Shown: positions 1 through 64,000 of the stretch, one piece after another
Numbering within the stretch: the first letter of the stretch is position 1
How the letters are laid out: every line of letters begins with the position of its first letter
Assembly (NCBI GenBank): GCA_017506865.1
Contig: JAFCMP010000042.1
Coordinates: forward strand, 358,971 to 422,970
Direction: 5' to 3'
DNA from: Tribonema minus
Lineage: Eukaryota > Sar > Xanthophyceae > Tribonematales > Tribonemataceae
DNA length: 64,000 nucleotides
Position numbers and translations under genes: made by a program
The notes under the pieces: model-generated
The model's input: the letters and a program-made list of their open reading frames with translations, nothing else
What the model was told of the DNA's origin: nothing
Database searches by the model: none

Positions 1-108
1 ACTCACTCAATGACTCAATGTCGTGCGCTTCATGCAGCAGACATTTCATTCAATTTTTACGCAATGCCGCTGCTCCGCTGCACGCTGTCGCGCCCGTGCC
101 TCGTGCAG

Positions 109-3100
109 GTTGAAGTTGAAGCCGCGCTCGACGCGTACACCGCCAAGGTGAGGCTCGCGGCGCGCGCCTGGTCAGCCTACTCGAGTACTCGAGTACTCGC
201 ATGACTCATTGCTGCACAGTGCCGCCACACAGCTCTGTTGTGTGAGCAGCAGCATACTCATGTGTTGAGAGAATTATTATATCAGTTTGATCATATGTTA
301 CTTGTATCACGCGCTTGGTCGGCGTACTCGACTCGAGTACTCGCGCAACTCATGGCTGCTGAGCGCCGCCACACAGCTCTGTCGCACGAGCAGCAGCGTG
401 CCAGCATGTTCGCCCAAACAAGCGCCAAACTTCAGCACCCGTGTTGAGCTGCGATCGCAGTGCAATACACCAAGTCAGGAGCGCCTGTGACGCTCGTCGC
501 CTGCTGGTCGCGCTGCACCATTCCCAACAAGGTGCTGACTGTCCGAGGCCAAACGGCGCGCGCTTGTCGCCTCGCTGTCTGTCTAGCAGAAAGGGGGGGG
601 GGGGGGGGTCACCTTAGTGGGAGGAGGGGAAGAGGGGGGCAACGAGGCAATGGTGCAGAAGTGTTGTGGTCGTTGGACAGGAGTAGCCATCACCCCCAGA
701 CCGTGTTCTTACAAGGTCTGCACTCCGCTGCGCTGCGATGCCAAGGCACACAGACACAACCAGAGCTTTGCCATGCATGAATACGGCGCATGCCGTGCGT
801 CTCAGGCGTGCGAGATGCGCTCACAACAGTCCACTCACCCCTTACTCCCACCCTCGTGATGGCCCGTTCCAGCTTCAATGTGTCAGTAATGCTCCACCTA
901 GTGATTGTCATAGCCGCTGAAGAGCGGTTCGGCGGTCCGAAGTGCCGATCTGAAAACAGCGCTTCTTGCGATCAAGTTCAAGTTGCTGTAGTATGAGATG
1001 CGCAAGAAGAAATAATTCCATGTACCAGCTCGTTCAGCGTTCTGATTCCTGAAACCCCCCTTCCCCTCTTCCCCGCTCTCCCAGGACTGCTGTCGCCTAG
1101 AGTCCCACGACTAGGCTCAAGTGGTCGAAGCACGTTGAATTTCTTCATCGAATCACATGGCTTTGCATCCATCGTGTTCACAGCGATTTTTTGACGCTCC
1201 CCCTCCCCCCCTGTGTCTCGCTCCCCCAGGACTACCTCGGCTGGAACCCGCTTGCGGGACCGCCGCCGGAACGAGTGCTGGTGAGCCATTTCTGCATTCT
1301 ATGACACCAGTGATAGTACGCCGCCGCAACGTGCGCGCTGCTTGTGCATCTGCAGCGAGCTGTGTCGACACTGCTTGGTACTGAAAGCGAAGGCAGTGAA
1401 TGCAGAGGGGAGGGTGATAGTCGGTGTGGGGGGGAGGGAGAGGGGTGAGTGCTGATGAGCGGTTTCGTCATTCTGTGACGCCAGCATCAGTACCTTGCTT
1501 CAATGTGCGCACTGCGTGAGCATAAGACTACAATGCAGGGGAATGGTAGTGGTGGGGGGGACCTTAGCCACGAATGGATGCCCTGTGCCGGACACTGTAT
1601 CTTGGGTTACCTAACCCTAACCCAAAGACGTGCGGGCGCATCATCTTCCGACGGTTGCTGACATGTCGCGGGGCATTGGCGAGGTACTTCCCCTTGGAAC
1701 AAAAATGACATCTTGCTTGCACGACATGTGCTCAAGCACGTGCCAATCACTCCTCGGCGCGTTGGGGCAGCACTTAGGGTTAGGGCTAAGGTCCTGAGTG
1801 GGGACTCTTGACGTTCTACAGCACGCGCCAGCCATCAGGAACAAAGAGTACTGTGTGACTTGTCCGAGCTGCTGCAATGGATTGCAATTTGCGACTCCCA
1901 CTCGTTGCTCGTAGAACCTGTACACTTAGGTTTAGGGTTGGGGGTGAGCAGAACCTGTACTGGGACGCCAATCATAGCTGAGACTGACTTGTAAAGCATC
2001 AAGGCCCCTTGCCAGAGAATGTCGAGGGGCGCTGCAGGCAAACACCCCCCCTGGCCCTTCCCACGTCAGCACAAGCGCGGGAGTCGTTTCAGCTGGCTTG
2101 TGAATGCCGCATGCATCGCTTGCAGGATGTGCACAAAGGCGCAGTGCGCCTTGGTTGCTTGCGGAATAAGCATGAAGACGCAGTCCATATTTGCAGACGC
2201 TGAATGCGTCACTTACAGGCCGCGCACACGGCACTGAACGAATTGCCAGTTACGTGCCCATCACGGCGTGGCGCGCCTTGTCTAACGCAACCATTGCTGA
2301 ATGATTGATTTGTTGAGTGGACAAATGAATGAACGCGCCGAGCGCAGGATTTGTTTATGGATGTGTATATGGGCGATCACGCCGTGGCGCGCCATGACCC
2401 CCGCTGACACAATGTTTGATTTAAAAAGTGAATGAATGAATGAAGTGAATGAATACCACGCATGCAGGACGTGTACACAAACGCGCCCATCACGCCGTGG
2501 CGCGCCATGTCCAACCTGATCAACGCTGAATGAATATTTGTGACTGAATGAATGAATGGTTGGGTGAATGATCATGTTGTGCGCAGGACGTGTACTCGGG
2601 CGCGCCCATCACGTCGTGGCGCGCCATGTCCAACATCACCGCGCATGAATGAATGAACAAATGAATGAATGAATGAATGAACACGTTTGGGCGCAGGACG
2701 TGTACACGGGCGCGCCCATCACGCTGTGGCGCGCCATGTCCAACATGACTAGGGATGTGCGCAGCGTATATCGTATATATAACGTATAGATATGTATAGC
2801 GTATATATAACGTTATAATGCGAAAAGCCTATACGCTCTATACGTTTCGCTAAAACGTCATTATTTCGGCTTTTCAGGGTTCTGTTGACCTGCCACATCA
2901 TCGGAAGGCCACTCTATGACCTCTGACATCGCGTCTCTTGGCCACGTCGCTAAGGTTACCGGCTGTAGCTGCTGCTGTTGCTGCTGCAGCGTACAGAGGT
3001 AGAGGGCAAAGTCGTGCTTGCTTCCAACAGTAAGCGTCAGAACTGGTGGGCCATGAGAGGTGCCCTGTCGTTTCCTCACATGGCCAAGGTGGCGGTCAAG

Positions 3101-6100
3101 ATGTTGTCGTTTCATGTGACCAGTTGTGCCACTGAGCGCAACTGGTCTTTGTGGGGGGATATTTTTGTCAAGGGCCGCAACAGACTTGCACTACAGCGCG
3201 CTGAGAAGCTGGTGATGATCAGGGGGAATGCAAAGAACATTGAGCACCGCAGGTCAGAGGAGGAGGTCGTGCTGTCTCTGCTGGCTGAGAAGTAGAGTGC
3301 TCATGTAGGTTGAGAACACACAGATGCCACGTGGCAGGCCTGCATTTGTAATCACTACAGCGTTTTTGCTTTGATCTGGATCTCGCTTCTGGTGCCTGTT
3401 CTGCAACGCCTGCGATTGATGCTACAATGCATAAAGAAAAATTAATTGAAACGGAGTTGAAGTTCAGGTTTTGCCATTAAATATACGTTTGTATACGTGG
3501 TATAACATTATAAGGGGTTATAATATACGTTATACATAGTATAATTTTTGAAATTATACGCTCGTGCACATCCCTAAACATGACCAATGCTGAATGAATA
3601 ACTGTGACTGAATGGATTAATCAATGAACACGTAGGGGCGCAGGACGTGTACACGGGCGTGCACATCACGCGGTGGCGCGCCATGTCCAACATGACCAAT
3701 GCTGCACACTTGTACATATTTTGACTAAATGAATGAATGGATCAATAAATGAACACACTGGGGCGCAGGACGTGTACACGGGCGCGCCCATCACGCAGTG
3801 GCGCGCCATGACCAACCTGACCATGAATGAATGAATTGACAAATGAATGAATGCACGCGTTGGGCGCAGGACGTGTACACGGGCGCGCCCATCACGCCGT
3901 GGCGCGCCATGTCCAACAGCCTCATCTCCACGTTCTACGCGCACCGCGTCGGCGTTCGCCTGGGCTGCGGCTACGAGGACGTGTTCCGCTGGCTGCGCGC
4001 GCTGCGCCCGTACCGCGGCCCGCGCGAGCTCAAGTGGCAGGAGTACATGGACCAGGTGCGTGTACGGCGAGAGTACATGCCTGGTACAGTGAACTATATG
4101 AAGTATTCCGCTAGCTGCGCGCGCTGCGCCCGTACCGCGGCCCGCGCGAGCTCAAGTGGCAGGAGTACATGGACCAGGTGCGTGAACTGCGTGAGAGTTC
4201 ATGCTCGGTACAGTGAATTGTGCAACTTCATGCGTGATACGGTGAACTATGCAATGGTTTGCGAGGATGTGCTACGCTGGCTGCGCGCTGCGCCCGTACC
4301 GCGGCCCGCGCGAGCTCAAGTGGCAGGAGTACATGGATCAGGTGCGTGAATTGTGAGAGTACATGCTCAGTGAACTCTGCAAGGTCATGCCTGATACAAT
4401 GATGTGTGCGATGGTTTGTAAAGGATGTGCTCTGCTGGCTGCGCGCGCTGCGCCCGTACCGCGGCCCGCGCGAGCTCAGGTGGCAGGAGTACATGGACCA
4501 GGTGCGTGAACTGCGAGAGTACATGCCTGGTACAGTGAACTTGGCAAGTTCATGCCTGATGCAGAGATGTGGGCAATGCTTTGCAAAGGACGTGCTCCGC
4601 TGGCTGCGCCGCTGCGCCCGTACCGCGACCTGCGCGAACTCAAGTGGCAGGAGTACATGCACCACGTGCATGACTTGCGAGAGTACATGCCTGGTACAGC
4701 GAACCTACGGCAACAGCGAACTCTGCTGCGGCTACGAGGACGCTTGCTGGTGGCTGCGCGTGCCGCGCTCGTATTGCGGCCGTCGCGCGCTCGTGAGCTG
4801 AGGGTGGAAGTAGTATATAGACAACGAGTTTGCAACGAGTTTGCATGCTGGCTGCAAGCGTACAAGTGTACGCATTCAAGTTGTCAAGCGTTCAGGTTGT
4901 TGAGCAGCATTACACATGCCATGCAATGATGTGCCATTGAACCGGCTTCTTGCTGCTGCTGTGCGGCCTTGTGCCGGCAGCACCCAGTCTGTTCAACTGT
5001 CACTGGTAACTGAACGCTGCGCGCGAAACAGGAAGTGAACATTGTTTCCACACGTTTTGCTGTGGCGCAGTGCTACCTGGTGGCCCATGTCATCCTGACG
5101 CTCAACAGCTGGGGCGAGCTGCGGCTGGAGCCGGAGTTGCTGCCGCACGAGTACCTATTTGTCAGAGAGGTGAGAGCAGGTGGACACAACATCTTCAACT
5201 CTTATGGGCAGCGCAGAGCTGCAAAGGTAGTCTGCACTGCATGCAATTTGCAGCATTCATGTACTTTTCATCAACGCTCAGGGCGCCGAAAAGCCCAGAT
5301 GGTGGATGTCCAGCTTGCAACCAGAATCCACATGTCTTTGTGAACACCTTAAAAGTGCCTCAATACGCATTGCCGATCACGTCTTTCTACTCAAGCCCAT
5401 GGTGGTGAGAGCAATGCAAATCAATTGAGTTTCACTTGCATCTCCGCTTGAGAACGGCAGCTTCAAATATGGGTGTAGATCAGGCCAGTCACGGCTAGTC
5501 AAATCACGCTGGGCGATTCTGCTGACACTGACTAAGCTGCGACATTTCCACGGTCCTGAAAGCGAGTAGGAGGGACGGCCTTGCTGCTTGCAATGCGACA
5601 TTGTCATGAATGCACTTTGGTGTGGCGGACCGGGCTCCGCTCTTGCCGCAGTTGCGACATTATGACCTTTCTTTTTGCGGATTGATAGTGGCAGCATGAT
5701 TGCTCAGATGGAGCACGCAAATCACACTTAATAAAAGTGGCAACCCACCCACCATGCAGCTGAGGGGGGTACATTAGGCAAGGCTCCATTCACATGTATA
5801 GCTTGAGCCTTGCCATGTGCAACTCGTATTCCACATTCCTTGAATGTTGTGGCCATGACAACGCACTGCACGTGCAGCTTCTGCTGCTGGTCCGATCATG
5901 GCATGCAGCAGTGCCAAACCCTGTTGTATGTGTTGTGGACCGTAGAATGGTGCAGGTATCACTCTGCCATATCGGCTGATCGACATGGCAGTTGTGCTCC
6001 ATAAACTACGACGCCGCGGAAGCCTTGCGGCAGCGGCCGACACACATTTGCGTCATCTCCAACGACATGGAGTGCAGCGCAAACGGCTTCATCGGCCTAC

Positions 6101-9100
6101 CTGCCTGCACATGTTGCAAGCCGATAATCGTTATGTTTCGCCAAGGATCTGTGAACCAGAGGAATGTGAAAGTCTTCCGCTCTTCCTCCGTCGTTCCTCC
6201 ACCGCCGCAGCACTTGGCAGTGCAAATAACGCAGCGGGATGTGCACCTGGTGGGGCAGTTCATCGAGGTCAGCGTTGTCGCATCGTCTGATCATTGGTTT
6301 GCCTGAAGTCACGCGAGTAGTTGGGGCTAAGCATCGGGGCATGACATCAGATGGCTCGAATTTGCCCTTATTGTATCATGGGGTTATGGTGTAGTGGTTA
6401 TCACGAATCGTTTGCAACGATTAGGTCGTGGGTTCGAGCCCCACTAACTCCTGTTTTTTTCCTTTCTTGCTTCACCGTTCTTCACCTCAATTTTTGCATG
6501 TGTCATCTGAGTGTGTTGTAGTACGAAGGGGGGTGCGAAGTTAAAGTAGGAGGGTGTATACAGTCTGCCAATGTTTGGTCTGCACCCAAATGATGAACCC
6601 ACTGCGCCATTGCGGAGCCTGCGCCTGCAATGAGATCATGAAATTGCAGCATAAAACGGGACTTTTCAAAGCCTCCTAAAACTCTCATATCAGCTCCCAC
6701 ACAATGCGCTACACACCAGACAAGGGACCATTGCCAGGACATTCACTGTGCGATGGTGACAGGATTCTCGCTGCGCGCTGCCCTCATTGGCTGCATCGTT
6801 GCCTGGCAGGTGCTGCGCGTCTTTGGCGCCGCCGACTCCGACCCCCTCATACAGGTGAGGCGCACCGATGGCAGCGCTCAAAACGCACACATCGCGGCGC
6901 TTGCATCCAGCGCTTGTGCTTGAGCAGTCAGCAGCAGTACCGCACTAGCTTCTATACTAGTCAGTGCGTGTACTGAAACGTGTGTCACGCGACAAGGCTC
7001 TCGCGCTGCGCTTGTGCATGAGAGGCATGAGAGCAGCCACCAATATCCATCTGCATTGTACTTCCTATTAATTCTCGCTCAGGGCGCAAAAATCCCAGAT
7101 GATTGATATCAAAGCTTAGACATAGTACAGAATCCACGTGCCGTGTGGCAGTCTGAAAGTGTCTCGATGACAATCACTTCAGTGTACTAATGCGCGCGCG
7201 CGCTATCGACGTCTCTCGTTGTTGTTGGGACCAGGCCGGCATCACCTTCCTTCTGCAGGCGCAGGAGGAAGACGGGTCCTGGGACAGGGGTGAAGACAGG
7301 GTAAGAGTTCTACTTGGTACTTGCTTTCGGCGCTGTTCCAGTTGCTGCCTGTTGGCCAACTGTGTATGTTGTGCACATGTCAGGAGGGTGATCACGTTGC
7401 GCCAGAGAAGGCGGCGGCGCGCGCCTGCGTGTACTCTGCAGGAAGGCGCTTTACTGTAGACTGTGTGCAATCAGGGTACGCGCCGAAACCCACCCATGTT
7501 TCCCCGAAACTAGTTTTGGCGATATGTCGGGGTCGGATCCATTGGAACTTGTTGGAATGGCCGGGATGCATTTGAGGGCGAAGGGACTCCGTCAGGGTGT
7601 TTGATACTGTTCTGTGCATAGCACAAGTGTAGGGTTGCAAAAAAGCGTATTTCCCCACACAAATACGCCTTATTCAAATACGCCGTATTTCCAGTACGTA
7701 TTTGATGTATTTGGCGAATCTGGGCATATGCTGGCACACGCAGTGTAGCTACAGCACACACAGCTCTCTGGTGTGCAACCTCAACCTCAAGTTGAGGTTT
7801 GACGCACTGTATGCCTCGTCTACTAGAAGGCGCTCAGGGTTAAGGGCAGGGTTAGAATGAGGGTCAGGGTTAGGTGTAGGAGCTGGAGCAGCCACGACGA
7901 CGACGAGGGTGGCATTTACGTGCACAAATCGTGAGGTGGCGATGGCAGACACCTTGGGCCTCTGATGATGGCGGTAGCGGTGCTGGCGAGGCTGCTGTAC
8001 CTGCAACAATTCCTGTCGAGCGAGCATTGCTGCCTGTGCAGCCATCCATCGGCTGTGTGGCCATCCATCGGTGTCGAAGGAAAACGCGGCCACACAGAAT
8101 AAACGATCATGTTGAAGTTCGGCTTCATCGAAGGAGAAGAAGAAGGCGAAGGCAGGCAAGGGGGAAGGATGCGGCGTTGCCCACACTGCCTTGTCAAGCA
8201 CTCCGTGGGCATTTGCAAAGGGGTCAGGCGTGAGGTCGCTCAAAAAGCACGTCCCAGTTCCTGGTGCTGCTGTCTCGCTGCTGATGTCAGCGTCAGCAAA
8301 GGAGCGCAGTTAACAGGCCTACGACAACACCGTATTTGCGGCGTATTTGCTCACACAAATACGTATTTAAATACGTATATACGCCCCCGTACTTAAGTAC
8401 GCATACGAAGTTTTGCAACCCTACACAAGTGTGTTTGCACACACCACGCTTCAAACTGGTATGACAGCGGTTTGGTCATTACTGTCAGCAGTTGTTGCGC
8501 CTCATCTCAACCCTCCCCCCGCCCATTCCCTAACCCTAACCTGTCGGAACTAAAGATCGGAACCTGAGGCAACGAGGCCTCGAGGTTTCGACGTTCACCC
8601 TGTATGTACGTACAGAATTGGCCTTGTAATCGAGGCAGTCGCTATCCTGGTTAGGAAGAACCGATTCTGGTATTTTTATCCGTTTTGAGGTGAGCTCTTC
8701 AGCCCGCATGGATACATAGTTTGTGGTTTTGACTTTTTACGGATGCACGCACACACAATCTCTTCTTGTGAAATGGATGCTATGTGTGTGTTCTTACCCT
8801 AACCCTAACCCTAACCCTAAACCTAACCCTAACCCTAAGTGTCACTATTGTGTATGTGTGGGTGTGTTCTGTCAGAAACTTTTCAACAGGTACTGTTTGA
8901 TCATGTGTTTATCCGTTTCTAGGCAACACGGGTCCAGCTTTGATAGAATGTATACGCTGGCACCTGCATGCGCACAGCTAGTAAAGCTGAACAAGACCAT
9001 CATCAATAATCGAAAACAGTACGATAATTATCGAAAAACTTCAATTTCGATCGGATTTTTTCCTATTCCGATGATTGTATTGGAACCTGGATTGAAACTG

Positions 9101-23893: not shown

Positions 23894-23917
23894 GGCAGCA
23901 GTCAGTCTAACAGCATC

Positions 23918-36959: not shown

Positions 36960-37200
36960 ACAGGCGACAGCCGCGCCGGCGCGCTACGCTGCAGCGCGCC
37001 CGCAACCTTCACTTCGAAAATCAGCGATAGCGCCCCCGCCCCCTGAGCAGACGGCGCCGGCACCGCAATAACACAGCAGCAATGCTGAGCCCGTATCCCA
37101 TACGCGCTGCCTCTCGTAAGGTGCGGAAGCGCAACAGCGCTCAGTCCTCCGGCGCGATCGAGACCTTGCCCCGCACAGCAGCAGCGCGCAGCTTACACCC
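36960..37200 (-). repeat. Decayed copies of the MDR terminal exon end, beyond the stop codon
   Basis: On the minus strand at about 37141-37190 the sequence reads RGKVSIAPED and a stop, matching the real C-terminus RGKVAIAVAPED and stop at 37255. A more degraded copy occupies about 36965-37075. The copies lie downstream of the gene, so the duplication pattern also applies at a 3' gene boundary. Confidence 0.7.
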
Positions 37201-37254
37201 CCGCACGCGCTCCCTCTCACAAAATGGCAACTAGGTATGCAGCAGTGCTCAGGC

Positions 37255-39793: not shown

Positions 39794-40465
39794 CCGATTC
39801 GCTCAAGATTCCTTCCCAGCCAAAGTTGCACACTTCATGCGCTGATAGAGGACGCAGCGGCAATGTGAATCAAGACAAGTCGCACAACGCCGCGTGGCGG
39901 TCTACGCGTCTCGTTTCCGCTGTAGCAAGTGCGTTTTCGCAGGCAACCTTGAAAGTTCAAGTTCAAAAAGCTTTTTCCCGGAGAAAGTAAATTCAATCAG
40001 AGAGGGCAGGGCAGGGCCTGGGGGGGGGCAGGCAAGGCACTGAATGCCGTTTCTGGCTAAGCACCTCCTTCCCGGAAGTTCAGTATGCAGTATGTAGGGT
40101 GACTTTCTTCCTGAAAATGGCATGAGGATACCATGGCTAAGTCTTGATAAACCAATAGAACGCCCGCTAAGCAAATTTGTTTGATGTATGCTATTGCAGT
40201 CAAACGGCAGACTAGTTTGCACAGAGCGTACCACATTCGTATGTGAGGTGTGCCATGCAATTGCAAGGTATCTTCTGCTGACACGCACAGCATCACATGT
40301 AGAACATCAACGCTTGCGCGACCGTTGCTCACATCTGTACAGGTTTTATTTACACCGGAGCACCATCGAAGTGTAGTCGGCCTTCCCCAGCCCTTCATGA
40401 CCACTTTGCATGCTCCCACGGCTCATCCAGACAAACAACACGTGAAATGCCAGCACCGCAAATAA
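39794..40465. other. Intergenic region between MDR and CCDC174 genes (both minus)
   Basis: No gene supported. About 670 bp must hold the MDR promoter/5' UTR and the CCDC174 3' flank. I saw no distinct motif beyond a short G run near 40021. Confidence 0.5.
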
Positions 40466-46400: not shown

Positions 46401-49400
46401 CTGTTTGCAAGCTGGGCATCTACCGTCTGGGCTTTTTCGCGCCCTCAGCGAGAATCAATACAAGGTACAGTAGGCCACGCAACGTTGCAGCAAGGCTTCG
46501 GCATGACATGAGGCGGTATGCTGACACTACGACATCAGATTCGGATTGCACACTCATGACATTGTGGGTGTTGCAGCATACCTCAACTTGAAGTAAACAG
46601 CTGCAGACCACTGCAGGATCGCAGCACGTTTCAGCATTGGGCCAACGTGCTAACCTTGTTGTGATACTTCGAAGTGTTCGAGCTTATTCAAAGGGCTTTC
46701 TACGTACACCCTGTTGATCTTGTAAGCTTCGCAATAGAGCTCTACGAGCTTTCGATTCGTTGTTCATGCACATCTTGTAAGCATCGCAATATGCACATGA
46801 GCATTCCCTGACGTGTAATGCAGACCATAAGCGCGCGCAGCAGCAGCGTCCTGACCGTGGAGATCGACCTCTGATGGACGCCCTCCATTGAGATATACTC
46901 CAAAATGAAGTTGAAGTACAAGATGACACGCCTTGTGGGAGTAACTCGGTTTACCCTCCGCCAATGTCAAGGAAAGCGATGACCATAAAGATCAACCCTG
47001 ATGGACGCCTTTGCCGTACGAGATGACACGCCTCATGGCACAGCGGTCACATGCCGCCTGTACTCGAACCACACATGCCCCATTGCACCTGCTACTTCCG
47101 CTTATACGCTCATGGTGTAGGTGAGGTACTGTAAGCATGTAATGCATGCGCGCCATCCTGCCGCAGTGCGCAGAGCGACGTAAAAGCGGACAAAAAACAC
47201 CGCATTTCCGCTCGCCTGCTTAGGACCCTTCATCCGATGCGTAATTTTCTTGCTCTACACAAGTTACTTCCTGCTTGAAGCACTCAAAAACAATCCGAAC
47301 TTGAACTTCCGCAGTATCTATTGAGTGCACCAAACTTGAACTTCAGCAGTATGCCTTTCTTTCTCTGCTTGGAGTTGTAGAGTTAGGGCTAGGGTTAGGT
47401 TTGGAGTTAGGATTAAGGTCAGGGTTAGGGTTACACAATAGTACGCAATAACACTCCAAACTTGAACTTCGGCATCAAGTACCTTTCCTTCTCGGTCATC
47501 TGCTGGTAGTCCTTGGTCTCCTCGTCGCGCCTATCGCCGTCGTGCACGCTGCAATTCGCACCATAACTTTAAACTTGAACTTCAATAGCAGTTACCTTTC
47601 TTTCTCGGTCATCTGCTGGTAGTCCTTGGTCTCCAAAAATGCAAAACTTCAAATTGACCTTTAGCGGTGAGTACCTTTCTTTCTCGGTCATCTGCTGGTA
47701 GTCCTTGGTCTCCTCGTCGCGCCTGTCGCGGTCGCGTACGCCGCGTTTCGCACAACTTCAAACTTGAACTTCAATATCAGTTACCTTTCTTTCTCAGTCA
47801 TCTGCTGGTAGTCCTTGGTCTCCTCGTCGCGCTTATCGCGGTCGCGCACGCCGCCGTTCTCTCAACTTCAAACACTTGAACTTCAGCAGCAATTACCTTT
47901 CTTTCTCGGTCATCTGCTGGTACTCCTTGGTCTCCTCGTCACGCTTATCGCGGTCGCGGACGCCGCGGTTCGCGCGCGTGAAAACGTCCTTCCTGCGCGC
48001 TCAGCAACGACGCGTTGCAGAGTCAGCGGCGTCGCACGCTCACAGGTCGACATGCGGCGACGTCAAGTAGGCGCAACCCAAACGTAGCGCTGTGTTTCGT
48101 CGGGAGACTCTCAGGGGAGTAACCTCAGGGCAACGCTGACCAGCAGCGACGCGCCGCAGTATCGTCAGCAGCGGCACGCACGGATTGGCAATCCATCCCT
48201 CGCGCCATAGAGAGCAGGTACAAACGGAATACGGCGCTGCCTGTCGGCAAGAAACTGACTAAGCAGCAACAGAGGCGCGCAGCGAGCACGAACTCTCGTG
48301 GCGGCATGCCGACAACGCGTCTTTGCCCTCGCTGGACAGGGCATTGTCCCCTGGGACCCCCCCGCGCGCATGAACACGTCCTGCCTGCGTACTCAGCAAG
48401 GTGCGCCGCAGTTGCGTCAGCATCGGCACACACGGATTGTCCATCCCGTGCGACATTAAGCTATTGCAAACCACATGCAGCGCTGTATATTTGCCAGGAA
48501 ACTCTCAGGGGTGTAACCTTAGGGCTACGCGTGCCACAGAGTCAGCAGCGAAACGCACACGCGTGTCTATCTCTCACGACATCGAGATTGATACACACGC
48601 ACGTTGTCCATTGCGTGCAACATCGAGCAGGCGCAATCCAAATATGCGCTGTGTTTTGCCAGGAGACTCTCAGGGGAGTACCCTTGGGGGAACCCTGACC
48701 CCCAAAACGCGCCGCAGAGTCAGCAGCATCACACGCACATCGTCCGTGCCGTGCGGCACCGAGCTGCTACAAACCAAATGTAGCGCTGTATTTTGCCAGG
48801 AATAAGCAATCAGTGACGGTGGCGCATAGCGAGCGCACACTGTGGCACGCTGCGGCGGCGGCATATCGATGTAGCGTCAGCAGCGGCACGCACACGCATG
48901 TCCATCTCTGACGACAAGGAGATGGATACACACGTAGATTGTCCATCCCGTGCGATGTCGAGCCAGCGCAAACCAAATGTGGCGCTGTGTTTTGCCAGGA
49001 GACTCTCAAGGGAGTAACCCTAGGGCAACCTTGAACCGCAAGACGCGCCGCAGAGTCAGCAGCGTCACACACACATCATCCGTGCCGTGCGGCATCGAGC
49101 TGCTACAAACCAAATGTAGCGCTGTACTCTGCCAGGAGACAAAGCAGCCAGTGACGGTGGCGCGCAGCGAGCACACACTGTGGCACTGTCACGGCGGCAT
49201 GTCGATGTAGAGTCGGCTGCGACACGCACAAGCATGTCCATCTCTCACGACATGGACATGGATACACACGCACATTGTCGACACCGTGCGATGTCGAGCA
49301 GGCGCAAACGAAATGTAGCGCTGTGTTTTGCCAGGAGACTCTCGGGGCAGTAACCTCGGGGTCACCCTCCCTCACCTAACCTAACCTAACCTAGCCGTAG

Positions 49401-52400
49401 AGTCAGCAGCTACACACAATTGCATGTCCATCTCTCGCGTTATCGAGATGGACATACACGCACATTGTCCATCCCAGGCGACATCAACCGAAAGAAGCGC
49501 TGTGTTCTGCCAGGAGACTTTCAGGGTAACCTCAGGGTAACCCTCACCCTCACCTACCCTAACGTAGCCATAGAATCAGCAGCGACACGCATGTGCATAT
49601 CCATCTCTCATGACATTTAGATGGATAGACGATACAGTATCTGACTTTTTTTATGCCATGACAGAACGTGAACCAGTAACGGCGGCGCGCAGCAAGCACA
49701 TTCTCTGGCGGCAATAAGTTAACGACAGATCTTTCCCCGCACTCGAATGGATTTTGTCCTGCAAGCATTCTCCTTCATGCGCTCACGACGTTACGACGAA
49801 TCGGGCCTCACGATGCATATCCTTGACAACAGGGCGCAACGGCTATAGCATTAGATGCAAGGACAGGGTCGAGTGACCGGGCCAGTGTGACAGCGAAGAC
49901 TCTCCTAGGGTGAGAGCTAGATCACGTCGACATTGTATGAACAGGGTTGAATCTGACACGCAGACTGTGGGTAGGGCTGAGGTTTGGGTCCGCCGACCTA
50001 GGGCTAGGGCTAGGGCTAGGGTTAGGTTTACTCACCGTAGGCGCATCTCGCCCTCCGCGAGCACGCCCGCCGCGCGCTTGCCGCGCATCGCCCTGCAGAG
50101 CGCACCCAGTATTCGAGCAGGGCCACTCGCGCGTCAATTGTGGTTTGCAGCTGGGGTAAGAGGTAACGGCATCATTAGCGCCAGGCTCTCAGCAGGGGCA
50201 CTTGTGCGTCAATCGTGGCTTGGAGCTGGTATAAGAGGATAGGGCATATTTAGCGGCAGCCTCTCCATTCGCGCTGATGCGTCGCATATGTTCACGCCCC
50301 ATTTGGCCGAAAGCACAAGGCGCTGCCTGCGCGCACACGGGCGCCAGTGTGATGAGCGCCCGCTTGCTAAGCGTGGACACCCGTTCGTAGCCGATCGACA
50401 GACCGTTCGGGTTGAGGTTCCGTGCCGAAGCATTCGCGTTGAGGTTTGAAGTTGGGTTTTGGCGCCGAGAAGCGGGCGCGCATGTTAGCAAATACGCAGC
50501 TGAAATCAAAGCCAAGCGGCGCATCAACTAATTACCAGGCTCGGGTTGAGACATGCTGCGTGTCAGGAGGAGGCGGACAGCCAGCGCTGCGCTGTGGGGT
50601 GCAGGAGGCCAGGGGCGCGCAATGACCCCCAAGGTTCCAAGTGCACCAGCGCAGCGCACTTCAATGACAATGCAACAATGATGCTGCCAAGAGGGGTATG
50701 AGCGCTGGCCAATCTATAACGTGCTCCCACGCTCAAATGCACGCGCGCGCTCCTCACACACTGTGGAATTCACAGAGTACTTCCCTCATGTGTGCAACTG
50801 TGATCATGATGTACGTGTGGGTGCTCACATCTCCCTCCACAGGCGGTTCAGTACGCTCAAGAGGGATGGCGGACCAGGTAGGAGCCATGTTGCAAGGCGA
50901 CAATCGTCATTGCTCGTGTGAAATCCAACAGCAGTAACACTTGAAACTAAGCCGCATCCTAAGTGGCTGCGCGCAGGTTAAACTTCACTCTTGACGAAAA
51001 TTTTTCATCGCAAGACCGTGGCGAACGGCAAGCATCATGTCCCAACTTCAACTTGCTGCGCCGACAAGCAAAAAGCTGCTCTTGTTGACAATCTTTCAGG
51101 GGTTATCACGACTCCACACCCGGAGTCATCGCCCGACTCCGCTCCGACTCCGTTGCGGCCGGAGCAGATTCGGAGTCATTTGGGCCATCACTTTGCTCCT
51201 CGAAGTCGGAGTCGGAGTTGTAAGCACACGAGTCACAGCTCCGCGGAGCGGAGTCGGAGTCGTACAGATATTGTAGATTCTTGGTAACCCCTGCAATCTT
51301 TCATCACCGTGGTGCGCGGCAAGCACCTCATGAGTGATGATAATCGTCACCAGAATCTGTACATACATACACGGTGCGCGGCAAGCACCCCATGAGTGAT
51401 GATAATCGTCGCCAGAATCTGTACATACATACATACACACATACCTGAGGTTGCCGTCGCCCGCCTCGCCGCTGTCGCCGCCTTTGCCCATCTTCAACTG
51501 AGCAGCATTCGAGGCACACAGGGAGCGGCGGCACGGGCGCACCGTCAGTTGCTGTGACAGGCCAACAGCGTCGTTGGGTAGGCCACACGATGTGCAGCCC
51601 AATGAACACATGAGAGACAGTGCTCCTTTCGCATGTCTGAGAAAGCATGTGGATCGCGGGTCTTCCCCCTAGCCTCAACCCTATGCCCTAGTACTAACCC
51701 CAATCCAGACCCTGCTTGGGTTACAGCGGAATGGTGCAGGGTGCCCCCGTTTGACACACAGCGCACGCGGAGCGCTGCCACGCGGTGCACAGCGCTCAGG
51801 CACTTTGTGCAGCATTGCTCCGCCACCACCACAACGCGTGCCATCGCTCAGGCGGCGTGTGCAACAGCGCTCCACCAGCGCCGACGCAGTGCACTGCCGA
51901 TGTGAACCAAGGATATGTATGTATGGATGGCTGTGCAGCGGTGATTCATCGGCACCAGCGCCACGTCAGACGCATGCCTTTCATGGTGCCGCACTGTCGC
52001 AGTGGCGGGCGAGCACTGCCACTGAGCGCTGCCACGTGCACACTGGATTGACTGTCGCAGCAGCAGCGACAGCAGGTGCGCAGTGCACAGGCGGCAGTGC
52101 ACAGCAATGGGCTCTGGGCGCGCGTGCTCGCGCCCTGTTGCTGTGCACAACGCTTAAGCGTCTACTACTCAGGCATAAATGCACAGGTCTATCCATTGGA
52201 CCAAAGCACAAGTGCACGCATCCTACTCCTTCAAGTGCCGCATTTGGGCGGCAATCGGCCCACAAAGCGAGCCAGGGTAGACTGTGAAAGGTACAATGTG
52301 ACGTGATGCCACGAGAAATGCAATTCAACAGAGCGCTGAACCCCCCCCCCCAAACAGCAGTCGCAAACGCCTGTGCTTGATCTAGATGTATGTATGCATG

Positions 52401-55569: not shown

Positions 55570-56254
55570 CACGGGCACAAGCACCTAGTGGCGGCCCCCT
55601 CCACGCAGCCCAGTCTGCAGGATGTTCTCAACGCCCTGTCAGCCTAGCCAATGGCGCGCTTCTTGCGGACAGATTTGCTTCCTTTAATCAAGGTGAAGGT
55701 AGTGTGCAGGTGTAATTGTCGTTTGTCTGCGCACAGGCACGTTTGGGTACGTAATGATGCACGTGCTTAGCGGGCACGTGCACCTCATCAAAATGCCAGT
55801 GTTGAGCGCTGAGGCGATACGGCTGCCATAAATAGTCATATGCGCAGTGTGCGTCTGCTAAAAAACTGCTGCCTGAAAGGTCGAGTCACCAAGGCATTCC
55901 ATAACGACTGCCACATCAGCGATGCACTGCGATCACCGCACTGCATGTTGCGTGGTATCAGTCGCTCTGCACGTTTCTGCATGGCGATGCCTTACACGCA
56001 GCAGACATGGTGAGACGTGAGCGGCCGCACTGTACTCCTGTGCAAATGGCGTGGTTTACATGGTCTGCCCTGCACGCGACAGCGCATGTATGCCGTAGTG
56101 GTGAGAGCGACGAACGCAGATGCTGCACTGCGCACATGCGCGGCGCTCCTGCTGTCTGTAATACATACACGCCGCTTACTGTACGTCAGTTGCGCAAGTG
56201 TCCTGAGGACTTCTTCTGCTGCCTTGCCCCGCTTGGCTGGCCTGCGTGAACAAC

Positions 56255-56364
56255 ACTTCTTTAATGTATTCTTGTCTAGGGCGCGACAACGTCCAGGTGG
56301 TAGATGTCCTGCTTGCTACTATCATCTACATATTTGTTGTGAGAATTTGAATGTATCTCAACAC
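56255..56364 (+). repeat. Dispersed ~110-bp repeat family, copy 5 (diverged)
   Basis: TCTTGTCTAGGGCGCGACAA, then CAGGTGGTAGATGTCCTGCTTGC and TGTATCTCAAC: the same order of blocks as the other copies, with more changes. Confidence 0.5.
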
Positions 56365-56643
56365 TTTCACATGGCCTATGTGACGCAAATGACATTATAA
56401 TGACATAAATGTCACCACATCACTTAAACACATATTTGAACATGTGTGCTGCATTGCGCATATAGCAGCCTGTGCTAGCATAGCATAGCGCACTGATGGT
56501 AGTGCTCCATGTGTTGTGTGCTCCATGTGTTGTGACTGCAGTGTTAAAAGGTCATCCTGGCGACAACATGAACATGGGCAGTACCATGAAGCCTGTGCCG
56601 GCAGCTTGCAGCCCATTACACTGCCCGCAATACCACATGCATC

Positions 56644-56763
56644 CCAGCACAAACGCGCCTGCCTGCAAGAATTTGCTGGGCCCTGGCAATTTCAGTCAGC
56701 CGTATCAGCACAAACGCGCCTGCCTGCAAGAATTTGCTGGGCCCTGGCAATTGTAGTCGGCCG
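56644..56763. repeat. Tandem duplication, ~60-bp unit
   Basis: CAGCACAAACGCGCCTGCCT through GGGCCCTGGCAATT occurs twice in succession, nearly identical, so it is recent. Confidence 0.92.
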
Positions 56764-57217
56764 TATACGCAAGTCTTGAACTAGGTACGTCAATGGGTGA
56801 TCGTCACAATTTTGTCCTGTGCACCGCGGCTCTGTCGCATGTATTTGCGGCAGAAGCAGGGCAGCCGCATAAACCTACATGGAGACGATGAAGGTCATAC
56901 ATGAAAAGTTCGCGGCGCCTTGAAGGATGGCATTGGTGTCTGCAGTTTGGAGCTTTGGTTGCCATATTCGTTGCAGTGTATCCTGACGTGCACCAACCTC
57001 AGCTTTGATGTTGACAGCATCATCTGTAAAGTGGTGGCACTGATGGCAAGCGCAGGCTGGCTTGAACAATTTGCATCCTTCTTCTTCTCAGGAACTTCAA
57101 GCTCCAGCTTTCGAAGTTCGCAGGTCCGATGATGCTCAGCAGCACTCTCTCGCAAGTTTTTTTTTTTTGGATTCGGCACACACACAAATCGCCAGCTCCA
57201 CCGCACACAGTGACACG

Positions 57218-60200
57218 ATGCCTCAGCGATGCCTGACCACCCCGCTCGACATCCGCGTCCACGGACGCGTGCCTATGGAGGCTGAGCACATCCTGAGCCC
57301 GGATGCGCTGCGATTCTTGGGCTACCTGCACACCCGCTATGAGCAGAGGCGCCAGGCAAGTGCCTTGTAGCAAGTAATGACACAACGATGCTTGTTGCGA
57401 GGCATCCAGTTCGCTGATAAATAGGCAGCTGCACTGCAGGTGCTTGGATCCGCTAGCCACGCTGTGTGTTGCGTATCTAGCTGCGAAAATACGCACTTTT
57501 TGAGCGCTTTAGCCACCTAAGATATGTTTGACACCCAGCAGTACTGGGCCTTTCATCGTTGCACCTGCCGAATAATCAGGCATTTCGATACTTTGCTGCT
57601 GCACCGCTGCAGCTATACTGCTGCCTAGCGCGCGTGCATAATTGCCCGGCTCGGGATTGAAGCAGGTCAATGAGACGACCATGGCACACGACACAGGCTC
57701 TGCCACGATCTGATTGACTTAAATGACTGCTTTTACAGCAGTGATCGTTTGAAGGCCAGATGCCAGGCACAGCAGCTTACGATGCTGCTGTCGCCAGCCA
57801 TATTCCGCAATTTGAATGGCCTTCAAGTTGAAGTCATGGTGAATGATGCGTGAACCAGGAGCAGCGGCTTGCTGCCCTCGCTATTACGAACTTTATCAGA
57901 AAGATATCAATATCCGAGCTGAAAAAAAGGCCTGTAAGCAAGGTCATTCCCATCTCTCGTGCGATGGGACCAATCCCAGCGGAGCGTGTCCTGTTTTGAC
58001 ATGCGACAGATTGTTGTAGGGAGGCTTGTGTGATAAATGCCACGCCTGCCACAGCATAGCTGTACATGACAGATCAAACCGATCAACCATTGGTAGGTTT
58101 TCAGCGTGTGAGGCCGTGCACTGCCATCCTTCGCGGAGGTTGAAGCGATTTATTGAGTTGAGATTTCTCGCATCTCAAGTATATCGCTGCAGCAAGCATG
58201 AGTATGGCTCCAAACTGTACTCTAAAGTGTGATCAGTTCGCATCGATGGCCACCTGTTATAAGCCTTGCGTCAGATCTAAGGCAATTCTGGCAGTGGGTA
58301 AAATTTACCACCCCCGTCCTTAGTGTATGCCGATGCACCTGCTCGCTAACACGGTCTTCAAGATTACTGCAGGCTTGCCAGCCTGTAGCAATGTCACACG
58401 AATGATTCCGTTATCTGCCCTGTGGTGACGGTGCAGCTGTTTGGACTGCAGCAGGCCCTTTCAATTGTAGTGTATCATGGTGATATCCATTAGGCATGGA
58501 GCGTGCTTCTGCAAAACTTCTTCGGGGGCAGATGAAATAAATAGGGTGCATGTCACTCCACATGCGCATCGCAATCGTCAGTGGCACAGTTTGACTCTGA
58601 TGGTACTGCTGCAAGCCATTGTTCAGCAGACAATCTAGACGTTTTTACACAAGACAGCACAGGATCTGATCAGTTACTGGCACGTTTAATGCAGAGCATA
58701 GTCCGACAGTCGGGACACGTATTGGCCCAACAACTGGATTGCACTTTTTATCGATCCGTCCATTCTGTGCTAGATAAATTTGGCTCAGCAGAAAGCCACG
58801 CATCAAGCTAATAAGCTTATGCCATTTCACAAGCGAATCAACGAACTAACACTTTTGATCTATGTACCGTCTCATCCCTACAAAAACCACTTATAATTAG
58901 ACTCACAGCTTCTTCCATATTAATACCACGTTGAATTCCCAGGTTATAATGCTCTAAAACAAATATCTCCAACAGTTGTTTCATCCATTGCAGTTGATTT
59001 TGGTTTTCAGCATCCAGCTTGTCATGGAGTTCTTCGCTTAGTATCCAGATGAGTCCACCACAAAAACAGAACTCTTCAAAAATTCATTCCATAATGCAAA
59101 AGCATCCAAAAACGAAGAACCACTACTTATAGAAGTACAATGTACCGTCCTCCTCCATCGTTATCATTTTTAAAAAAATTATTGTGCGATGACGATGTGC
59201 CACTGCAGATGCTCCTGGCGGCGCGCGTTGCGCGGCAGTGCGAGTTTGACGCGGGCATCGACCCTTGCTTCCGCGCGGAGACCAAGTACATACGCGACGA
59301 CCCCGCGTGGAGCGTGCGCCCCCCGCCCAAGGACCTGGAGGACAGGTATGCATGTATGTGGTGTAAGTGCTTACCTGACTACCTACTGATGTGGAGGGGG
59401 AAGGGGGGGGGTGGGGGGTGGGGGTAACATACGCGACGACCCCGCGTGGAGCGTGCGCCCGCCGCCTAAGGACCTGGAGGACAGGTATGTATGTATGCAT
59501 GTAGCGCACGCGCCGAAAGTCCTACTTGTGCGAAGGGGAAGAGGGGGGGGGGGGGGGGGGGGGGGCTACATGCGCGACGATCCTGTGTGGAGCGTGCGCC
59601 CCCCGCCCAAGGACCTGGAGAACAGGTATGTATGCATGTAGCGCACGTGCTTACCTACCTACTGATGTGGAGGGGGAAGGGGGGGGGTGGGAGGGGGGGG
59701 GTAACATACGCGACGACCCCGTGTGGAGGGTGCGCCCGCCGCCCAAGGACCTGGAGGACAGGTATGTATGTATGTAGTGCACGTGCCTACTTACCTACTG
59801 ATTCGAAGGGGAAGGGGGGGGGTGGGGGGACATGGTTTGCAGGTGGAAGAAGGACGTGGAGGAGAGGTATGTATGTACGTGGCGCATGCGCCTACTTAAC
59901 TACTGATGGGTAGCGGAAAGGGCGGGTGGGGGGGACATGGTCGCAGGTGGTAAAAGGACCTGGAGGACAGGTATGTATGTATGTAGTGCACGTGCCTACT
60001 TACCTACTGATTCGAAGGGGAAGGGGGGGGGGGGGGGGGGACGTGGTTTGCAGGCGGTGGAAGGACGTGGAGGGAGGTATGTATGCACGTGGCGCATACG
60101 TGGCGCATGCGCCTACTTGCCTTCTGCTACGAAGGGGGAAGAGGGGGAGTGGGGGGACATGGTCTCAGGTGGAGAAAGGTCTTGGAGGACAGGTATGTAT

Positions 60201-63200
60201 GTATGACGCGATCGCGCCTACTTACCTGCTGATGCAAAGGGGAAAGGGGGGGGTGGGGGGCGGGACATGCTTGCAGGTGAAAAGGGGAACATAAAATCCT
60301 TACGTATCTGTCCCACGATGCGTACGGACATGGAGGACAGGGTGCGTCAGTGTGACCGAGCGCGTGTGCTAGGGTTAGTGCTTGGGGTCAGGGTTAGTGC
60401 TTAGGGTTAGGGTTAGTGCTGTGCTGCACCATCGCGTCGGACAGCAGCTCATTGGCAATCTGGACTTCATTTGCGCCCCTGGCGCGAAACACCAAGAATC
60501 ACCTTTGTTTTGAAGCAGAGAAATGTGAGTCTTCATTCGGCTAGATCACCCGAGTACGCATTCTTGGAGAGGAGTACATGCTCACCTACCTGCGCACTGG
60601 TGCGAAAAGGGATTGAGGAGGGGGGGGGAGGGCAGGACACGAGCAAGGATGTCAGGGGTGGGGGGATGTTTGAGCGTTGTACGCGCGCTCTGTCGTGAAG
60701 ACCAGGGGCGTGGCGGCGGCGTGGTGTGTCGAGCCAGCGCGCGTCCGCTCGCTGCAAGACAAGGCACTCACCGCACACGAGAATGGCAGAAGGAAAAAAC
60801 TTGGCGCGGATTGCAGGAAGACCGTCTGTGGGGGTAGGTATGCTATGAGCAATCGATGGCAGGTTGTCACCGAGAAGTGGGGGCTCAGATGTCGGAGATT
60901 TCGGCTGCTGCGGTCTTCGGGTTTGCTGGTAACATCAATCTATTGTCACCTCTGACAGCAACGGCCATGTCATGACGTAATCTGTCATCGCCTGACACTC
61001 GGTGTGCAATCACACATTGGAGTGCGATCATGAATGATCTCATTCGGATGGCCCACTGCGCTTGGTGCACCATGCGTGAACTCCGTGTGGATGGTATTTG
61101 AACTGTGGGTGGCCTGCCTGAGGGGACATTGTTGATCCATTTCACACGGTATGCAATCATGCATTCGAGTGTGATCATTTGGATGCCCCCACTGCGCTCG
61201 TGGTGCACCGTACATGCACTCTGTGCAGAGTGTATTTTGACCTGTGTGTGGCCTGCCTCAGGACACATTTTCTAATGACACACGGTGTGCAATCGCCCAT
61301 TGTGAGTGTGATTGATCATTTGGATGCCCCCACTGCGCTCGTGGTGCACCGTACGCGAACTCTGCATGAACTGCATCTGAACTGCGCGTGTCCTGCCCCT
61401 GTCCTCAGGCGCGTGGAGATCACCGGCCCCGTGGACCGCAAGATGGTCATCAACGGACTCAACAGCGGCGCCAGGTGAGCGATGCTGCTTGGCGAAGCAC
61501 TGCATGAAGGAAGGGGGGGGGGGGGGAGGGGGGGTAGCTACATTGATTCTTGCGAAAAAGGCGCAGCTGGGGGGGACCGGGCGGGCGGGGACGGGGGAGG
61601 GGGCTAAATGATTCTTGTGAAGAAGGCGCAGCTGGAGAAGGGGGGGGGGGGGGGGGGGCTAGCTGCATGCGTTCATATATGACGGATTTGGGGAATTCTA
61701 TGGTGGCTTGGCACGTCAAAATTACTAGAGGTAGGGCTTGCGGTCCTGCGTGCCCTGCTCTCAGAAAATGCGCCGCGCCTTGTTGCTCACAACACTTTGT
61801 TCGGCGTCCAGGTTTTGGCGTCTTAGTTAAGCAACGTCTTGCTGGTGTGGTCTACATCCTTTGCCACCTAGGTTTGGTGCAGACGTACCTCTTCACCTGC
61901 CAATCGCTGATGCAGCCTGCCTGGCTCCTGTGTCGTGCAGCACATACATGGCGGTTAAGCACTGTTGCATTCCTGCATCTGCTTGGCTTTTCACTGCGCA
62001 GCACAGACGTGCCATTGTTCACCGCCGTCACACATAATGATTGCAGTGTGCTGAATGTTGCTCTACTTCTCCGCTCCCCAGCACGTACATGGCGGACTTT
62101 GAGGACTCCACGAGCCCCACCTGGGACAACGTGCTGGATGGGCAGGTCAACCTGTACGACGCCACGCGCGGCACCATTGAGTGAGTCCTGAGCGCTGCTG
62201 TAATGCAATAATCATACACTCAGAGCGTCAATTACCACTAAAATAAGTATCATCGTTGTTGCAAGTGTTGCCCCAACAACTCCGTCGGCTGGGAGGAGCA
62301 TGTAGGGGGCAGAGCCAGGACAAGCTGTACGACGCCACGCGCGGCACCATCGAGTGAGTGCTGAGCGCTGCTGTAATACAAATAGCACTGAGCGTTGCTA
62401 CTATAGTGCAGTGTGTTGTTGTCGCAATGTTGCTCAACGACACCGTGGGCTGGGAGGAGTATGTAGGGGGCAGAGCCAGGACAAGCTGTACGATGCCATG
62501 CGCGGCACCATCGAGTTAGTCCTGAGCGCTGCTGCACATGTTGCGATGTAGAGAGCTGCACCTATGCAACAGGCTAGTGAGCAGTAGCTTTATTTTTTAT
62601 TTTTTGACTTTTGAACATTGAAGCAGGTCAACCTGTATGACGCCACGCGCGGCACCCGGCACCATCGAGTGAGTCTTGAGCGTTGCCATGGTTTAATAAT
62701 ATGAGAGAGTGTCGCTAGTACAATGCAGTGTGTTATTGTTGTCGCAAACGTTGCCTAATGACATGACACCCTGAGCTGGGGGGGTGGGGGGCAGAACCAG
62801 GGCTAGCTGTACGACGCCTCGCCTGGCACCATGGTGTGAGTTTTGAGCGCTGCTATGCCATCTGCTTTGACGCATGTTTTGCCGCAAGTGTTTTTAAGAT
62901 GAATTCCTGGGCTGGGGTCGAGGTTGGGTGAACACATTGCCCTGGGCAAGGGCAAGAGTCAGAGTCAAGGTCAAATCAACCTGTACGACGCCACGCACGA
63001 CACCATTGAGTGCATGAACCATGATGAACGTCACCATGCTGTGCTTGGCTAAGAATGCCTACATACACTCTGCGGTCGCACTAGCTACTTGTTTTTCCCG
63101 CATGTTGTTCAGTCCTTCAGCCTACAATGTGTTTGCACGTAGCTGCGACATCCGTGTTTTTCAGTACACTCAACGCTTTTACTCTCCCCCCACGCCCCCT

Positions 63201-63800
63201 TGCAGGTACACCAACCCCGCCAACGGCAAGGTGTACAAGGTCAACGAAAAGCACTCCGTGCTGCTGGTGCGCCCCAGGTGAGACGGCGCGCGCCAGCGCG
63301 ACTCCGCTACTTGAAGTACATCATCAAACCTGAAGTTGAACTGGAAGCTGAAGTTGAACTTGGAGAAGAAGTTCAGCTCTCTGCGGCGGTCGCCGGCGCC
63401 CACACGACGCGTGCCTGCGAAGCGCGCCGCACGCTCGCGCTTGAAGTGTTCGCCAGCTACCTGTGACCTTCGTACGCTAGCCTGCTTCAAGGGTTCGGCA
63501 GACACCTCTGACCTGAGTGCGGCATTTGATGAGGCCCATGTCACAGTCAACCACGACCCTCAAAGAGTCAAGACTGAAACACTGTTCAGCGGCTCTGACC
63601 ACACCCACTCTCCCCACGTAGCGCAACGACAGTACATCACTGCCATTGCTTTCGCACTTAAGTTTATGTGCCACTCTGCCTGCCGTTCCCTATTGCAGTA
63701 TCAACCCAAACACATTTTTTGTTTCGCCCCTGCCCTCCCCCTCTCCCCCCCTCTGCCAATGATACTCAGGGGGTGGCACCTGGACGAGGCCCATGTGACT
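57218..63800 (+). CDS. Malate synthase (A-type), 3' end beyond window
   Basis: Exons 57218-57355, 59209-59345, 61409-61474, 62082-62180, 63206-63277 and from 63770, all phases consistent; the rest of the protein lies outside. It follows bacterial/peroxisomal malate synthase A closely: [116 protein letters not shown] and [10 protein letters not shown]. The Arg in R-G-x-H-L belongs to the conserved active-site region. It condenses glyoxylate and acetyl-CoA to malate in the glyoxylate cycle. The start is the Met opening the conserved N-terminus; the frame is open upstream. Intron 1 uses a GC donor (CAG|GCAAGT). The C-terminal peroxisome signal cannot be checked. Confidence 0.95.
57830..59170. 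other. AT-rich island in malate synthase intron 1
   Basis: Base composition is clearly more AT-rich than its surroundings. At 58838-58984 the minus strand has a 48-codon frame starting [20 protein letters not shown] and continuing upstream without stop for about 30 more codons ([17 protein letters not shown]). It looks coding-like (amphipathic, AT-rich codons) but I cannot assign it. It may be a remnant of an inserted element. Confidence 0.45.
59346..60300 (+). repeat. Array of decaying copies of the 3' end and donor of malate synthase exon 2
   Basis: The real exon ends at 59345 (KDLEDR|GTATG). Seven further exon-end/donor copies end at about 59484, 59625, 59761, 59866, 59970, 60076 and 60192. 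The first three carry [17 protein letters not shown]-like segments of about 63 nt. Later ones keep only KKDVEER-, KDLEDR- or KVLEDR-like ends. Units are 104-141 bp, and each includes a GTATGTATG donor, a CCTACTTACCTACTGAT segment and a poly-G tract. Confidence 0.92.
60370..60418. repeat. Telomere-like variant tract
   Basis: CTAGGGTTAGTGCTTGGGGT followed by TTAGTGCTTAGGGTTAGGGT: TTAGGG units alternating with a TTAGTGC variant, in malate synthase intron 2. Confidence 0.75.
62290..63015 (+). repeat. Copies of the 3' end of malate synthase exon 4
   Basis: The exon end encoding [14 protein letters not shown] with GTGAGT donor (real end 62180) recurs at about 62320-62354, 62480-62516, 62625-62671, 62805-62837 and 62975-63011. 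Most keep the donor or a near-donor. One copy has GGCACCCGGCACC, an internal duplication. Each unit also repeats TGAGCGCTGCTG and a CTGGGAGGAG...GGGGGCAGAGCCAGG intron block. Confidence 0.9.
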
Positions 63801-63919
63801 TCACCCACGCCTCTGAAAGACTTGAACAGAATACGTATCATGACACCGATGTTGTTTTGCCCCTCCCCCAATCTGACGATGCCCCCCCCCCCCCCCCCTT
63901 CCCCCTTCGACGATGATGC

Positions 63920-63960
63920 TCATGGGGTGGCACCTGGACGAGGCCCACGTCACCATCGCT
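63920..63960 (+). repeat. Second copy of the [10 protein letters not shown] exon start
   Basis: GGGTGGCACCTGGACGAGGC matches the exon start at 63771, but here the preceding bases are CATG instead of TCAG, so no acceptor is present at the same place. Which copy, or a further one beyond the window, is used cannot be decided here. Confidence 0.7.
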
Positions 63961-64000
63961 TGCGCCTCTGAACTAGTTGAGACTAAAACTGTATCATCAC

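Follow-up and report, generated by a model that had tools for sequence, protein, structure and literature searches.

Exon-edge copies on the intron side of splice junctions in many genes of the xanthophyte Tribonema minus

INTRODUCTION

In the exon stuttering described from chicken dot chromosomes, the lateral part of an exon is copied together with its splice site through the adjacent intron as imperfect tandems (Hron et al. 2026, PMC12954441). According to the accessible parts of that article, the process goes with intron length polymorphism, its mechanism is unknown, and it was not found in other vertebrates save gerbil genes (data not shown). Two other accounts stand close to it, as far as their accessible text goes: a published tandem duplication across an intron-exon boundary, in which a 3′ splice site was copied and one new intron arose, and the AGGT model (PMC3443670), in which tandem duplication of a source within an exon multiplies splice sites and yields an intron. 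Here we analyse the last 64 kb of contig C42 of Tribonema minus (JAFCMP010000042.1, positions 358971-422970 of 422970 bases; hereafter the window, numbered from its own first base), part of an assembly of 158 Mb in 554 contigs, in which copies of exon edges lie in the introns of a malate synthase gene, a CCDC174-like gene and genes labelled SDR, MDR and LW.

The arrays have much in common with those of chicken as the accessible parts of PMC12954441 present them: exon parts bearing a donor or acceptor lie in the adjacent intron beside intact exons, purely intronic arrays occur as well, and a paralogue may be without arrays. The copied exon part measures 20-187 bp with a median of 4 copies in chicken, and 34-104 bp with a median of 3 copies per array here. 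The chicken cases lie mostly on dot chromosomes, whereas ours lie on at least 11 contigs of a photosynthetic protist, and length polymorphism was shown in chicken whereas our single assembly allows comparison between paralogues only. In the accessible parts of the article we met no discussion of one-sidedness or of a better-kept exon part. The published boundary-crossing duplication likewise copied a splice site, but existing introns grow here and no new intron was seen; similarly, splice sites are multiplied by tandem duplication in the AGGT model as they are here, but our source straddles an existing junction. An earlier sequence-only reading of the window had stated that no described system shows this pattern, which cannot be upheld, as exon stuttering has the same anatomy. 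By this comparison we would assign the arrays and avian exon stuttering to one kind of process, the new element being the very distant host. No report of exon stuttering outside vertebrates was found in the literature searched, which was mostly open-access and did not cover preprints on bioRxiv, and within that literature the term itself occurred only in PMC12954441.

RESULTS

Exon borders were fixed from reading frame and AG/GT dinucleotides for all of these genes, and one or both borders are approximate in 4 of the 20 window exons (the first SDR, first MDR, last CCDC174 and first malate synthase exons). The borders that the sequence-only reading had given at 3870-4055, 41951, 46211 and 47897 agree exactly with ours. 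LW denotes an unnamed gene; the MDR gene is named from a Pfam match to ADH_N (4.8e-11) and the CCDC174-like gene from a sub-threshold Pfam match only. The window malate synthase gene matches, exon by exon, a gene on contig C335 that itself matches PF01274. For the SDR gene we assume a label based on the earlier reading and on sequence motifs. Copies were searched in two ways: 19 window exons were compared with the whole window on both strands, and 20 window exons plus 9 exons of the C335 malate synthase gene were each compared with their own surroundings of 4 kb on either side, with three Markov-shuffled flanks for each of the 29 exons as a chance control.

Direct repeats of part of an exon in its adjacent intron, the hallmark of exon stuttering, were found in the second search as 57 partial copies within 10 nt of an exon edge, and their placement is strictly one-sided. 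All 14 copies of 5′ edges lie upstream of their exon and all 43 copies of 3′ edges lie downstream, just as the sequence-only reading had it. A further 6 copies stop short of any edge and lie on the side of the nearer one, so that the source reaches an exon border in 57 of 63 copies. Wrong-side, antisense and whole-exon copies numbered zero within these flanks, and the shuffled flanks gave no match at all. The whole-window comparison of 19 exons agrees with this and, away from the exon flanks, gave no significant match in sense; its one antisense match, 27 nt of the last SDR exon at a distance of 17.5 kb (E 7e-4), looks like chance. The splice dinucleotide is kept in 48 of 53 copies (GT in 37/40 donor and AG in 11/13 acceptor copies). 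Exon-edge copying with one-sided polarity is thereby confirmed.

The copies belong to 17 of the 29 exons and 19 of the 58 exon sides, the next exon being unknown for some of the end exons. Self-comparison of the window brings out many local direct repeats, with units of about 100-200 bp at the named exons, and arrays called by Tandem Repeats Finder (TRF) extend across exon-intron junctions. Two statements of the sequence-only reading hold only in part. Identity was said to fall in most arrays with distance from the exon, and in 13 of 16 arrays the nearest copy does resemble the exon more than the farthest one does, but one array is tied, two are reversed, and the relation is not monotonic, as an LW copy of 98% at 1.1 kb illustrates. 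Introns were also said to be built from such copies; arrays are common, but the wording is too strong, since they cover 8,363 of the 28,902 bases of 22 introns and 12 of the 29 exons are free of copies.

The fullest example is LW exon 3870-4055 (forward strand), which is accompanied on both sides. Seven copies of its 5′ edge (80-98%) lie upstream between 2253 and 3816, in clusters at 2253-2745 and 3644-3816, six of them reaching the exon start and all five checked carrying the AG; five copies of its 3′ part (81-96%) lie downstream between 4100 and 4792, four reaching the donor edge while that at 4725-4792 stops short. Two of the LW copies carry deletions of 1-2 nt. The second LW exon concerned, 16926-17014, has one upstream copy of its 5′ edge at 16590-16651 (63 bp, 82.5%). 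In the SDR gene, also on the forward strand, exon 27977-28072 is followed by 3′-edge copies at 28149-28208 and 28289-28356, and exon 29918-30038 is flanked by 5′-edge copies at 29462-29502, 29641-29681 and 29771-29811 and by 3′-edge copies at 30195-30234 and 30296-30344. Exon 32860-33055 is followed by 3′-edge copies at 33133-33214, 33290-33371 and 33528-33583, and the last exon, 34517-34696, is preceded by copies of its 5′ part at 33605-33635, 33731-33834, 33929-34028, 34132-34220 and 34352-34422, three of which extend to the exon start.

On the reverse strand, MDR exon 38312-38667 has a 5′-edge copy at 38765-38867 (92%) and another, decayed unit near 39067-39165. The last MDR exon shows a weak 42-nt copy downstream (79%), which makes up one of the 19 sides and sits in the sequence beyond the gene's last exon and not in an intron, and a 23-nt copy upstream (91%). 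The CCDC174-like gene, also on the reverse strand, has 3′-edge copies at 41780-41825 and 41639-41674 after exon 41951-42046, whose acceptor is not fixed, at 46022-46075, 45835-45893 and 45628-45681 after exon 46211-46291, and at 47785-47859, 47675-47751, 47596-47634 and 47483-47559 after exon 47897-47992. Malate synthase (forward strand) has 3′-edge copies of exon 2 (59209-59345) at 59427-59484, 59567-59625 and 59704-59761, with more units of the same array at 59762-60285 recognised by their intron flank, the exon part being mostly gone; between 59400 and 60250 unit after unit has long G runs in its intron part. Exon 4 (62082-62180) is followed by five 3′-edge copies at 62316-62353, 62477-62514, 62623-62656, 62798-62832 and 62976-63009. 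At the contig end (63726-64000) lie two copies of the exon-6 5′ edge, 63767-63800 and 63921-63953; either of them may be the coding one, or the coding exon may lie beyond the contig. The contig thus terminates within an exon-edge array, and such arrays may break assemblies. The exons that the sequence-only reading had singled out all bear copies: both LW exons, SDR exons 5, 6, 9 and 10 (ends 28072, 30038 on both sides and 33055; start 34517), the three CCDC174 exons, and malate synthase exons 2 and 4. For MDR exons 2 and 3, which it had described as copied on both sides, the upstream copy of 38312-38667 was recovered but no both-sided pattern, and the last exon has the short or weak matches only.

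Other genes show the same arrangement, which was seen on ten further contigs. Around Pfam matches of the malate synthase, tubulin/FtsZ and light-harvesting families, 10 of 43 loci carry copies in the predicted direction; three of these ten, L001-L003, are part of the C335 gene. Among the 43, L012 has a donor that is not fixed and L020/L021, L033/L034 and L044/L045 are likely duplicates; L006 and L007 had been dropped from this number as intronic copies. Three loci of CCT genes (L056-L058) also show copies in the predicted direction, and as they were picked for doubled Pfam matches they speak to direction and not to frequency; a CCT gene taken without that sign (L059) has one clear and one weak copy among six exon matches. 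Many genes are therefore affected, though not all, and the pattern is not missing from other genes, an outcome on which the sequence-only reading had made its own standing depend. Pfam profile searches list intronic copies as separate domain matches (L006 and L007 of malate synthase; CCT on C51, C5 and C135), an annotation hazard in which copies are mistaken for exons.

Some candidates were not counted. L017, L027 and L031 pointed in the wrong direction; these candidates fit the internal symmetry of LHC helices and agree with second LHC matches of the profile search. L037 is a repeat inside an exon. Among the light-harvesting loci the paired members L020/L021, L033/L034 and L044/L045 score identically, sit on different contigs (C296/C490, C70/C489) and are perhaps retained haplotypes or recent segmental copies. 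The profile search lists 92 LHC-family matches in the genome; for LHC queries on the right strand the best match was to long LHCI chains of 9vfj in three of four and to a diatom-type FCP in one of four, followed by chains named CAC and ACPI, names used for cryptophyte or dinoflagellate proteins. A search for psbA gave no match above the cut-off.

The C335 paralogue allows the arrays to be placed in time. Malate synthase exons 2-5 are equal in length in both genes (137, 66, 99 and 72 nt), so that these introns are older than the paralogue-specific arrays. Outside the exons, the match between the two loci is limited to exon-edge copies and a tract of 31-36 nt (60381-60416). The C335 gene has 3′-edge copies downstream of 4 of the 9 exons examined, and exon 4, with five copies in the window, has none there; this array either grew after the two genes split or was lost in one of them.

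Several further features of the window stand apart from the named exons. Upstream of the CCDC174-like exons, an array at 48538-49625 consists of a 336-bp unit in 2.4 copies and a 173-bp unit related to it. Two tandem duplications at 51311-51433 and 56645-56766, with units of 61-62 bp and an identity of 95-97%, look young and belong to no known exon. Short TTAGGG-like tracts occur in introns and between genes (8796-8838, 29022-29055, 32277-32313, 47378-47433 and 60371-60420), and that at 47380 matches the starts of many contigs, which consist of this repeat and are telomere-like in look. A tRNA-Ala(TGC) gene lies at 6380-6452.

DISCUSSION

We propose that the arrays probably arose by local tandem duplications, with a unit mostly of 100-200 bp straddling a splice junction and recurring at the same junction, a model that most reasonably fits the sequence. 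Each unit is an imperfect head-to-tail copy that holds an exon edge, as a rule together with its splice dinucleotide, and mostly also intron that can still be recognised next to it; the coding exons are intact, extra copies lie on the intron side only, and the arrays are unlike between paralogues. Duplication of a segment running from the end of an intron into the next exon would give the order intron-end, exon-start, intron-end, exon-start, rest of exon. The second exon-start alone would run into the body of the exon, leaving the surplus piece upstream, and donors would be the mirror case. Duplications within an exon or spanning a whole exon would mostly be purged, and the copies that remain would afterwards drift as intron sequence, while misalignment with the conserved exon edge may seed new copies there, such that junction arrays would renew themselves. 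The sequence-only reading took the polarity for a special property, which it need not be: when a duplication spans a single junction, coding function can be retained solely by the copy that runs on into the exon body, and as long as the exon is left intact the surplus piece falls in the intron. One-sidedness would then follow from geometry and selection for an intact gene. The suggestion that repeated tandem duplication at exon-intron junctions lengthens introns and leaves decoy splice sites is borne out, in other genes too.

If polarity requires no special mechanism, ordinary random tandem duplication without any junction preference could be at work, with detection and selection making the pattern. 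Arrays that accompany no curated exon (48538-49625, 51311-51433 and 56645-56766) speak for this, and so does the placement of 11 of 20 intron arrays away from junctions. These 20 arrays come from a search of 22 introns from which exons were excluded, so that conserved exons cannot aid detection, and 9 of them come within 10 nt of a junction. Uniform placement within the intron would lead one to expect 1.42, or roughly 3-4 of 20 by our own arithmetic under a laxer null in which units are free to overlap exons. As 14 of the 22 introns belong to genes flagged in the earlier reading, the junction excess is suggestive and not proven, and random duplication is left as an unlikely but serious competitor of junction-recurrent duplication.

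Explanations that give the copies another origin or a use fare less well. Mobile introns (introners) or insertion of reverse transcripts would account for splice sites being carried by the copies, but all copies are sense and beside their source exon, and many hold intron sequence, which spliced RNA lacks. Moreover, the clusters are local: genome-wide, with very common words skipped, the array at 29380-30260 has a single match besides itself, a 57-bp stretch of exon on C9, and that at 47380-48100 matches itself and, among the matches listed for the best 40 of 90 candidates, telomere-like repeats only, so that neither of these two arrays, the latter within that limit, revealed dispersed copies or similar intron sequence at many unrelated loci. 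A mobile source is thus hardly credible. An assembly artefact, which the use of a single assembly and the ending of C42 within an array might suggest, is scarcely more so, as divergence from the source exon is 0-25% (mostly 4-13%) in the exon parts of copies and higher in the flanks, which read or assembly errors would not yield, and the arrays are unlike between paralogues. Selection maintaining the copies as functional alternative or poison exons is improbable too, if less decidedly. For such a role one could cite the exon-derived part, which outlasts its flanks in 15 of 15 arrays, the splice dinucleotides intact in most copies, and a synonymous share of copy-private changes somewhat above that expected without selection (49/140 against 27%, p 0.036). 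Nevertheless 87 of the copy-private changes replace an amino acid and 4 create a stop, two LW copies have suffered small deletions, no whole exon is copied, of the 27 donor copies in the window 3 can be reached from the exon in an open frame and the other 24 lie beyond a stop, and multiples of three are not over-represented among the 40 exon-to-donor distances (10, 19 and 11 in the three phases). Of the exon-private changes, 7/10 are synonymous. The copies look nearly unconstrained as protein, and the route to alternative exons that the sequence-only reading envisaged appears unlikely.

Tandem duplication followed by plain neutral drift does have difficulty with the preservation of the exon-derived part, and the following observations weigh against it. 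By our own arithmetic such decay sets a floor of 0.5 on the ratio of exon to intron divergence, an at most two-fold difference, the source exon being constrained. Between exon and copy, divergence amounts to 0.095 over the exon arm and 0.301 over the intron arm, a ratio of 0.32 (52/53 copies); for 22 of these 52 the intron arm scores 0.55, near the shuffled 0.52, yet the exon arm 0.87. When copies are compared with one another (15 arrays, 51 copies), identity is 0.845 over the exon-derived 30 nt, 0.669 beside the junction and 0.657 past the far breakpoint, giving divergence ratios of 0.47 and 0.45, close to that floor, and the exon part is higher in 15 of 15 arrays with at least two copies. 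In a selected set of 12 arrays the corresponding identities are 0.90, 0.72 and 0.74 with ratios of 0.35-0.38, a step at the junction and not a slope, and the exon part lies above the far flank in 11 of 12 with one tie; this set left out 3 arrays and 8 outlying copies, and the excess preservation shrinks when all 15 arrays are used. Gap openings are few in the exon part (2 against 32), beyond what neutral decay would give, and the strongest case is C335 exon 8, which three copies match at 97-100% identity over 38-39 nt while their intron arms score 0.53-0.63.

These ratios are biased to a degree, since copies were detected via their exon part, and forced alignment of copies with exons overstates intron divergence. 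When matches were extended symmetrically, 21 of 40 copies reached 30 nt to either side, the other 19 not extending so far; the 21 diverge by 0.070 in the exon and 0.144 in the intron, values consistent with neutral decay. A search based on flanks found 28 candidate positions, of which about 7 were judged true units with a decayed or missing exon part, and part of the preservation effect is therefore ascertainment. Neutral decay is strained and not clearly rejected. Possible alternatives are homogenisation anchored on the exon, a lower rate of change in GC-rich sequence that stems from exons, and weak selection for splice signals. Exon stuttering in chicken goes with very GC-rich genes; here GC content is 66.7% in the 29 exons and 55.1% in 14 window introns, and it is 0.671 (n=18) for edges with arrays against 0.653 (n=40) for edges without (p 0.33). 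The boldest version of homogenisation, in which exon edges serve as conserved master templates, recombination or gene conversion refreshes the copy cores while flanks decay, and self-renewing arrays form a general eukaryotic engine of intron growth and not an avian oddity, strikes us as rather doubtful.

The same anatomy, probably the product of junction-straddling tandem duplication, is found in many genes of a photosynthetic protist, which suggests that exon stuttering is not tied to avian chromosome biology. The compact 158-Mb genome of T. minus would ease following how intron length changes.

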